Positions 19,252-20,130 of a stretch of 64,000 bases of DNA are shown here, piece by piece (the stretch's first letter is position 1; each line of letters begins with the position of its first letter). The DNA lies in assembly GCA_002729885.1 (NCBI GenBank), contig PBUB01000021.1:410451-474450 (forward strand), written 5' to 3'. Source of the DNA: Spirochaetaceae bacterium (lineage in GTDB: Bacteria; Spirochaetota; Leptospiria; Leptospirales; Leptonemataceae). The notes under the pieces are model-generated. The model ran no database searches. It saw nothing but the letters and a program-made list of their open reading frames with translations, and was not told the origin of the DNA. Both the position numbers and the translations under genes were made by a program.

Positions 19252-20130
19252 ATGAAGTATTTGATCAAGGATTTGAGTAAACTAACCGGCTTCGATGGAG
19301 CTCGCATACGGAAATGGCAGGAGCGGTATCGCATCCTGCGTCCGGAGCGAGGTGCCAACGGTTATTGGTACTACGGAAACGAAGACTACATCGTCTTGCA
19401 GAACATGAAAAGGCTTCTGGAAAAGGGAGAAAAGCTTCAGTCGGTAGTATCCCTTGGTCGGGAATACCTTCTGGGAATGATGGGAGCGGAGGACTTTGCC
19501 GAAAGCGAAATGTCTCTTATACAGCGAATCGCCAGCAACGATTTCTCGAGCATTGAGCGAGAATTCGACGAGTTGTATCAAAGCATGCCTTTTTCCAGTT
19601 TCGTTCGCGGGCCTATTTTGAGGGCTGTAGTGCTCACCGGAAGCGCATGGGAAGCGGGCCTGCTTTCTGTGGCAGAGGAACATGCATTCTCGCGCTGGCT
19701 CTTCACTTACATTTATAGCAAGACCAGCGAACTGGGAATTCCCGCAGAACCAGTATGGCTGGTATGTGTATTTCCCGGTGATCCGCACGAACTCGGCGCA
19801 CTGATGCATTACGCATTGCTGATCTCGAAAAAGGTTCCTGCTAAATATGCAGGAACGCTATCAATAGAACACATTGTAGATGAATTGAAGCGAAACAGTT
19901 ATCGAAATCTGAGCCTGTCCATGGTAATGCCTCAGTCTCCTGAGAAAATCGAAAGCATTCGAACCCGAATACTGGAGAAAAGCGGGGTGCAGAAGGTTCT
20001 AATCGGGGGAAGGGGATATCGCGCATCCTATTCCCCGGATGAAGATGATACCAGTTTGCAGTATTGCGAACCCCCGGTGATCAACAAGAGGCGTAAAAAT
20101 GCCCTGGAAGAAATCAAAAAGCAAATCTAG
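19252..20130 (+). CDS. carH: MerR-family regulator with cobalamin-binding domain, CarH/LitR-type photoreceptor
   Basis: N-terminal MerR HTH (IKDLSKLTGFDGARIRKWQERYRILRPERGANGYWYYGNEDY), helical bundle W-EAGLLSVAE-EH (W-x9-EH) and GDPHELGALMHYALLISKKVPAKYAG, matching the ligand motifs of CarH. Confidence 0.85.
   Translation: MKYLIKDLSKLTGFDGARIRKWQERYRILRPERGANGYWYYGNEDYIVLQNMKRLLEKGEKLQSVVSLGREYLLGMMGAEDFAESEMSLIQRIASNDFSSIEREFDELYQSMPFSSFVRGPILRAVVLTGSAWEAGLLSVAEEHAFSRWLFTYIYSKTSELGIPAEPVWLVCVFPGDPHELGALMHYALLISKKVPAKYAGTLSIEHIVDELKRNSYRNLSLSMVMPQSPEKIESIRTRILEKSGVQKVLIGGRGYRASYSPDEDDTSLQYCEPPVINKRRKNALEEIKKQI

Follow-up and report, generated by a model that had tools for sequence, protein, structure and literature searches.

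A CarH/LitR-like regulator gene, its candidate operator and a photoactive yellow protein cassette in a spirochaete gene run

A 292-aa open reading frame from a spirochaete genome very probably encodes, as judged from its sequence, a CarH/LitR-type repressor that senses light by means of vitamin B12. It lies in a window of 64,000 nucleotides (64 kb), the whole stretch of DNA that was analyzed:

19252 to 20130, plus strand: CarH/LitR-like MerR regulator (carH), 292 aa from an ATG start, with a helix-turn-helix (HTH; residues 3-64), a helix bundle and a Rossmann part

The protein in itself is a further member of the CarH/LitR family and the new part is its regulatory wiring: a conserved dyad suggests that the CarH-like protein controls light-response genes, including those of other photoreceptors, here photoactive yellow protein (PYP) and pigment genes. 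It probably acts as a class I (adenosylcobalamin-type) light-released autorepressor that does without a bis-His light state and controls PYP production. With its dyad operator and without the second ligand, it is a variant of CarH/LitR and not a plain copy. The proposed switch is based on sequence, residue conservation, predicted fold, gene order and the conservation of operator and targets; the whole case rests on sequence, and most of the relatives compared are draft metagenome assemblies.

The helix bundle contains W133-x9-E143-H144 and the Rossmann part D177-P-H179-E-L-G182, each occurring once in the protein, together with S223 and GG252-253; H179 occupies the lower-ligand position. Across 22 homologues from the class (36-88% identical to the CarH-like protein), G130, W133, E143, D177, H179, G201, S223, G252 and G253 are invariant and H144 is conserved in at least 90%. 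A motif scan for W-x9-EH followed 20-60 residues on by [DE]xHxxG found no other reading frame in the 64-kb window. Using phmmer against the PDB, CarH/LitR of Thermus thermophilus (TtCarH) was matched (3whp, E 5e-19; 5c8d, E 6e-19) at about 25% identity with both motifs in register, and a profile of the 22 homologues improved the E-value to 9e-25, with the cobalamin-binding protein 8j2x, a photocobilin, as a further match. Conservation, in-register match and uniqueness in the window thus raise the two motifs above chance, and the initial annotation was right to read a CarH-like W-x9-E-H and a B12 lower-ligand His loop from this sequence.

The AlphaFold2 model (pLDDT 85.6) places a winged helix, a helix bundle and a Rossmann part in the expected order, and the best 50 Foldseek matches listed for it are all TtCarH/LitR. 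On the model, cobalamin-binding domains taken in isolation superpose at about 3 A; over the full length the rmsd is high, which probably reflects a different placement of the DNA-binding domain. Sequence and predicted fold together provide the hallmarks of class I LitR, namely a MerR HTH with both B12 subdomains (helix bundle and Rossmann), W-x9-EH in the helix bundle, and a B12 motif with the lower-ligand His, here with Asp for Glu and one residue shorter. Pfam assigns the MerR HTH alone (PF13411), no model for a B12-binding domain being reached in that search. The NCBIfam CarH model NF052513 matches almost the whole protein (E 1.6e-24) at 86.7 bits, far below its cut-off of 400; as an equivalog model, it rejects distant homologues too.

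A CarH-like gene is present in 28 of the 48 genomes of the class. Named relatives come from Leptospiraceae and other Spirochaetota MAGs, and the search of named genomes returned spirochaete records only, since the class alignment served as query. One homologue (L018, genome G039) has lost the Trp and Gly of GxxW (ASASQHQWLSLGAEH), while its His loop and upstream dyad are kept; possibly it is a B12-independent, CarA-like form.

The signature is not the full CarH signature that had been claimed. The position of TtCarH His132, next to Trp131, is taken by Glu134 and, in the other sequences of the class, by Glu, Gln or Ser, never by His. In TtCarH, His132 is the second cobalt ligand, the upper ligand of the light state, and forms the bis-His light state, and with the H132A substitution the protein remains largely a tetramer in light (PMC10442372). 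CtMerR carries Arg at this position and changes from tetramer to monomer in light all the same (PMC11796333); the His132 equivalent is also missing from photocobilins and is semi-conserved, not family-defining. Because CtMerR with Arg still switches, Glu134 is compatible with photoreception, the bis-His light state being excluded. Further departures are the absence of GxxxP from the published light-responsive signature (SignatureFinder: GxxW, EH, GxxH, GxxxP; PMC11796333), a predictor rather than a family definition, of which GxxW, EH and GxxH are present, and a Rossmann motif that reads DxHx2G-x40-SxV-x26-GG compared with the published ExHx2G-x41-SxV/T-x22-27-GG (PMC8156234). Together with the NF052513 score, these departures contradict the word 'full'. 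Support for the reading as a CarH-type light sensor is good: the residues are conserved, the predicted fold agrees, the genome encodes an adenosyltransferase and the operator's targets are light-related. The reading had overlooked the missing His132 equivalent, which matters because it bears on the light-state mechanism. The adenosyltransferase, of PduO type and encoded in the same genome, could supply AdoCbl; a CobA-type gene is absent from the genome. At Rfam gathering scores, no cobalamin riboswitch was found in the window or near the adenosyltransferase, TonB and MetH loci.

carH is part of one tightly packed co-directional run of about 13 kb (15911-28701), with the dyad at its start. Its genes, preceded by the divergent flanking gene, are:

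14641 to 15693, minus strand: divergent CMAS-family methyltransferase (CMAS, E 2e-38), homologues of which often adjoin carH
15911 to 17392, plus strand: GPH/MelB-type MFS transporter, first gene of the run (MFS_2, E 9e-78)
17389 to 19242, plus strand: protein with DUF5939 and an adenylate/guanylate cyclase domain (Pfam)
20172 to 21455, plus strand: FAD-dependent amine-oxidase-like oxidoreductase (Pfam), found after carH in most genera of the class
21527 to 22474, plus strand: DUF1365 protein (E 8e-65), gene order conserved
22461 to 23753, plus strand: cyclopropane/furan-fatty-acid-synthase-like CMAS methyltransferase (E 8e-83), gene order conserved
23775 to 24026, plus strand: 83-aa protein, kept beside PYP in the class (gene neighbourhood)
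24085 to 24513, plus strand: PYP, with the chromophore Cys in APCT, Glu46 kept and Tyr42 replaced by Phe
24523 to 26073, plus strand: AMP-binding ligase, adjoining PYP as in known pyp operons and presumed from this to be a p-coumarate:CoA ligase
26024 to 26572, plus strand: 182-aa protein, its C-terminal end similar by eye to the 83-aa protein
26679 to 28259, plus strand: aromatic amino acid ammonia-lyase (Lyase_aromatic, E 4e-86), presumed to use tyrosine
28240 to 28701, plus strand: conserved 153-aa protein, SRPBCC/START-like by eye, final gene of the packed run

The cyclase gene ends 9 bp 5' of carH and the FAD oxidoreductase gene begins 41 bp 3' of it. This order is kept in all five genomes of the window's genus as far as the contigs extend, and the core of carH, FAD oxidoreductase, DUF1365 and CMAS genes in most genera of the class. 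Homologues of the 153-aa protein, which has no Pfam match, come after the carH cluster in L057, L060, L061, L063 and L065, and those of the MFS and DUF5939-cyclase genes in L060 and L061 have a dyad of their own, located between the two genes. The start of the divergent methyltransferase was moved from 15954 to 15693, 3' of its promoter-like site, where its homologues start too. No carotenoid genes are found in the run. Elsewhere in the window (48759-50573), an amidohydrolase-like reading frame is broken by an in-frame TAG at 49770-49772.

Matches to the known LitR/CarH site TGTACA/TnTACA are scattered in the promoter, none of them conserved across the genus; what emerged instead was a conserved dyad of 29 bp, TGTCNAANNTT-N7-AANNTTNGACA. 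It lies 30-58 bp 5' of the CarH-like gene in 11 genomes of the class (in L064 in a version one base shorter), and its right arm often forms a -35 hexamer, followed 16-17 bp on by a TATAAT-like -10 hexamer, as should be for an autorepressor site. The dyad is an inverted repeat, on average complementary at 9.6 of 14 positions; a reading as direct repeats was rejected, self-identity at 11-bp spacing being low. Over the 48 genomes, the strict pattern occurs at 22 places in 14 genomes, compared with 1 for the reversed-pattern control, a count that is not fully independent since the dyad was first spotted by eye in the loci that later supplied pattern and matrix. A CarH-like gene is present in 13 of these 14 genomes (Fisher p 0.003). 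In the remaining one (G027) the match, rejected as a site, is intragenic and agrees with the chance rate seen with the control. The window contains the following elements:

15793 to 15821, minus strand: promoter-like TTGACA-17-TATCTT for the divergent methyltransferase gene (consensus match alone, 10/12), abutting the dyad
15816 to 15822, no strand assigned: extra half-site TGTCAAA, adjoining the dyad and conserved in the genus; on the minus strand it is the TTGACA -35 hexamer
15828 to 15856, no strand assigned: candidate CarH operator, 29-bp dyad AGTCAAAGGTTATCAAAAAAGATTGGACG, 55 bp 5' of the MFS start codon

The strict pattern misses the sites of this genus because the ends of the dyad have drifted (AGTC...GACG). 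A matrix trained on other genera only, from which the sites of the window's genus and of L077 had been left out, scores 15828-15856 at 26.1 bits; the next best site in the 64 kb reaches 4.1 bits and the maximum in 5 Mb of first-order simulated sequence 18.0 bits. The dyad occurs once in the window, is conserved in the genus and has no other copy in its own genome at up to 3 mismatches. A good -10 element after its right arm is absent from the window. At the place of the -10, the block CTTTC.TTCGTCTCAGGTT (15870-15890), 3' of the dyad, is conserved in the genus and not TATAAT-like, which perhaps points to another sigma factor. No promoter for carH alone was found in the 9-bp gap to the cyclase gene, nor a second dyad in the window. 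The proposed repression of a downstream island finds support in kind, as the sole operator-like site of the window heads the run that contains the island, but that run starts upstream of carH, at the MFS gene, includes carH itself, and has the divergent methyltransferase gene on the other side of the site.

Elsewhere in the class, the dyad lies 5' of a cassette of the 83-aa protein and PYP (L063 and L076, and by matrix L077, 18.7 bits), of BLUF-cyclase genes (L061, L071, L133, L135 and L136; in L064 the BLUF-cyclase gene is divergent from carH), of uvrA (L129) and of folE, encoding GTP cyclohydrolase I (L130), and between carH and a divergent photolyase gene (L057, L061). Membrane-lipid genes are also among the targets, and the list includes DUF1295 (L061, L131), fatty acid desaturase (L132) and TonB receptor (L134) genes. 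At the genes for BLUF-adenylate cyclases (photoactivated cyclases), the dyad is in or beside the promoter, two having a perfect TATAAT 17 bp on (TGGACA-17-TATAAT, with the right arm as -35). The light regulon of Pseudomonas LitR proteins comprises PhrB, an FAD oxidoreductase, UfaM and FolE, and the dyad targets overlap with it (PMC9758184). A light-response regulon is the best single explanation of these targets.

The product of 24085-24513 has a PYP sequence with Cys69 for p-coumarate, APCT being aligned (PDB PYP, E 4e-25; TIGR02373, E 6e-29 at 100.6 bits, short of the cut-off of 143). In known pyp operons, p-coumarate:CoA ligase and tyrosine ammonia-lyase, encoded next to PYP, make its p-coumaryl chromophore (PMC12826048). 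PYP genes are present in 16 of the 48 genomes, and in G012 (L063) two of them follow the carH cluster; these tandem genes (12896-14439) each have a small partner gene, and only the second pair has a dyad of its own. At 14 of the 18 PYP loci in the class, PYP has beside it the gene for a small protein made up of a repeated helical unit (MExQLxxLYxEKExL) and a short C-terminal tail (23775-24026 and 26024-26572 in the window, L063, L072-L077 and L079); for the 83-aa protein there is no Pfam match. The small protein is a candidate signalling partner of PYP. The finding that had singled out the CarH-like gene did not mention the PYP and chromophore genes of the island.

We propose that, in the dark, AdoCbl would be bound at His179 and capped by Trp133, Glu143 and His144, giving an oligomer that would bind the 29-bp dyad at 15828-15856. 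The bound dyad would repress the run 15911-28701, presumably a single transcript, and, since carH lies inside the run headed by the dyad, carH would be autoregulated; the divergent methyltransferase gene would probably be repressed from the same dyad. Light would break the Co-C bond and loosen the oligomer, and the freed dyad would allow expression of the run, including PYP and its chromophore enzymes. With Glu134, the light state would not be the bis-His state of TtCarH and should resemble that of CtMerR. Counting against this reading are the NF052513 score far below the cut-off, the lack of a Pfam B12 match, Glu134 and the missing GxxxP, as well as an inverted-repeat dyad unlike the direct repeats of TtCarH and the poor -10 in the window. 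We consider unlikely an extension with two photoreceptors in series, in which the B12 switch, lacking a bis-His light state, would gate synthesis of PYP and its chromophore enzymes here and of BLUF-cyclase in relatives, and PYP, perhaps via the 83-aa protein, would act back on the repressor in the manner of short LOV on class II LitR; if true, the switch would have two light inputs.

Other readings of the CarH-like protein have to be weighed. Many MerR proteins activate, and both the MerR-type DNA-binding domain and the poor -10 element in the window, as of a promoter needing help, would suit an activator. Activators of the classical MerR type sit between the -35 and -10 elements of long-spacer promoters. 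Here the dyad covers the -35 and the spacers in relatives are 16-17 bp, as for repressing LitR/CarH, which makes activation very unlikely. A sensor of AdoCbl level, for which photolysis would be incidental and not a physiological light switch, would fit the absence of the second histidine ligand and the TonB receptor gene among the dyad targets; we give it little credence, even less than activation, as the targets are photolyase, BLUF-cyclase, PYP and uvrA and not B12 transport or synthesis genes, and no cobalamin riboswitch-type genes were found beside carH.

Just as improbable as the level sensor is that B12 is not the light sensor and that the CarH-like protein is an effector of the neighbouring PYP. 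A LitR-family protein under the control of a PAS-type photoreceptor encoded next to it has a precedent, the class II LitR PmlR2 of Pseudomonas mendocina being the effector of an adjacent short-LOV protein (PMC9758184), and PYP shares the run with carH in the window's genus. Yet class II LitR keeps the helix bundle alone, whereas the CarH-like protein has both B12 subdomains with their ligand residues, and in the class PYP is missing from the neighbourhood of most CarH-like genes, many of these genomes lacking PYP altogether. Least probable of all is a B12-independent relic of the CarA kind that has kept the fold and lost the cofactor. The missing Pfam B12-binding match, the low NF052513 score, the absence of GxxxP and the loss of Trp in the L018 homologue would fit such a relic, but CarA is without W-x9-EH, which here persists, together with H179, across families at 36-50% identity.

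In the open-access literature we found no paper that places a CarH-type gene or operator at a pyp locus, although absence there is weak evidence, and CarH is not mentioned in the paper on a spirochaete light-activated cyclase (PMC9043183). PYP serves as a model photoreceptor, yet its signalling partners are mostly unknown, which has been called an important gap (PMC12826048). A CarH-type site 5' of PYP cassettes in several genera leads to a direct hypothesis, that is, that PYP is made in the light via B12. Moreover, the same dyad 5' of BLUF-cyclase genes would tie B12 photosensing to cAMP signalling in Leptospira relatives, for which control of motility by a light-activated cyclase has been reported (PMC9043183). 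The Glu134 variant is also a natural test of the need for a second histidine ligand in CarH switching.

Like Thermus thermophilus CarH and class I LitR (5c8d-5c8f, 3whp, 8c31-8c37), the protein combines a MerR HTH with a helix-bundle/Rossmann B12 domain, and it shares with TtCarH W-x9-EH, the lower-ligand His loop, the predicted fold and an operator, here a candidate, over the -35. It differs in Glu134 for His132, the lack of GxxxP, DxHxxG for ExHxxG and the low identity, and in a candidate dyad operator as opposed to 11-bp direct repeats, with no carotenoid genes in the run. With CtMerR (8jbs/8jbt; PMC11796333), compared by its published signature only, it shares the MerR type and the absent second histidine, whereas CtMerR has Arg at the Glu134 place and GxxxP. 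The class II LitR proteins of Pseudomonas (PplR/PmlR; PMC9758184) resemble it in a regulon with photolyase, FAD oxidoreductase, CMAS-type UfaM and FolE, in a separate photoreceptor encoded nearby and in an operator over the -35; unlike the present protein, in which both halves are present with ligand residues, they lack the Rossmann B12 half, are driven by short LOV and recognize TGTACA-N12-TGTACA instead of a 29-bp dyad. Finally, the run resembles the pyp operons of Halorhodospira halophila and of a survey (PMC12826048) in that genes for a CoA ligase and an ammonia lyase accompany PYP. The text of that survey names GGDEF/EAL, kinases and BLUF and never MerR, CarH or cobalamin; here the PYP cassette is joined to a CarH-like gene with a presumed operator.
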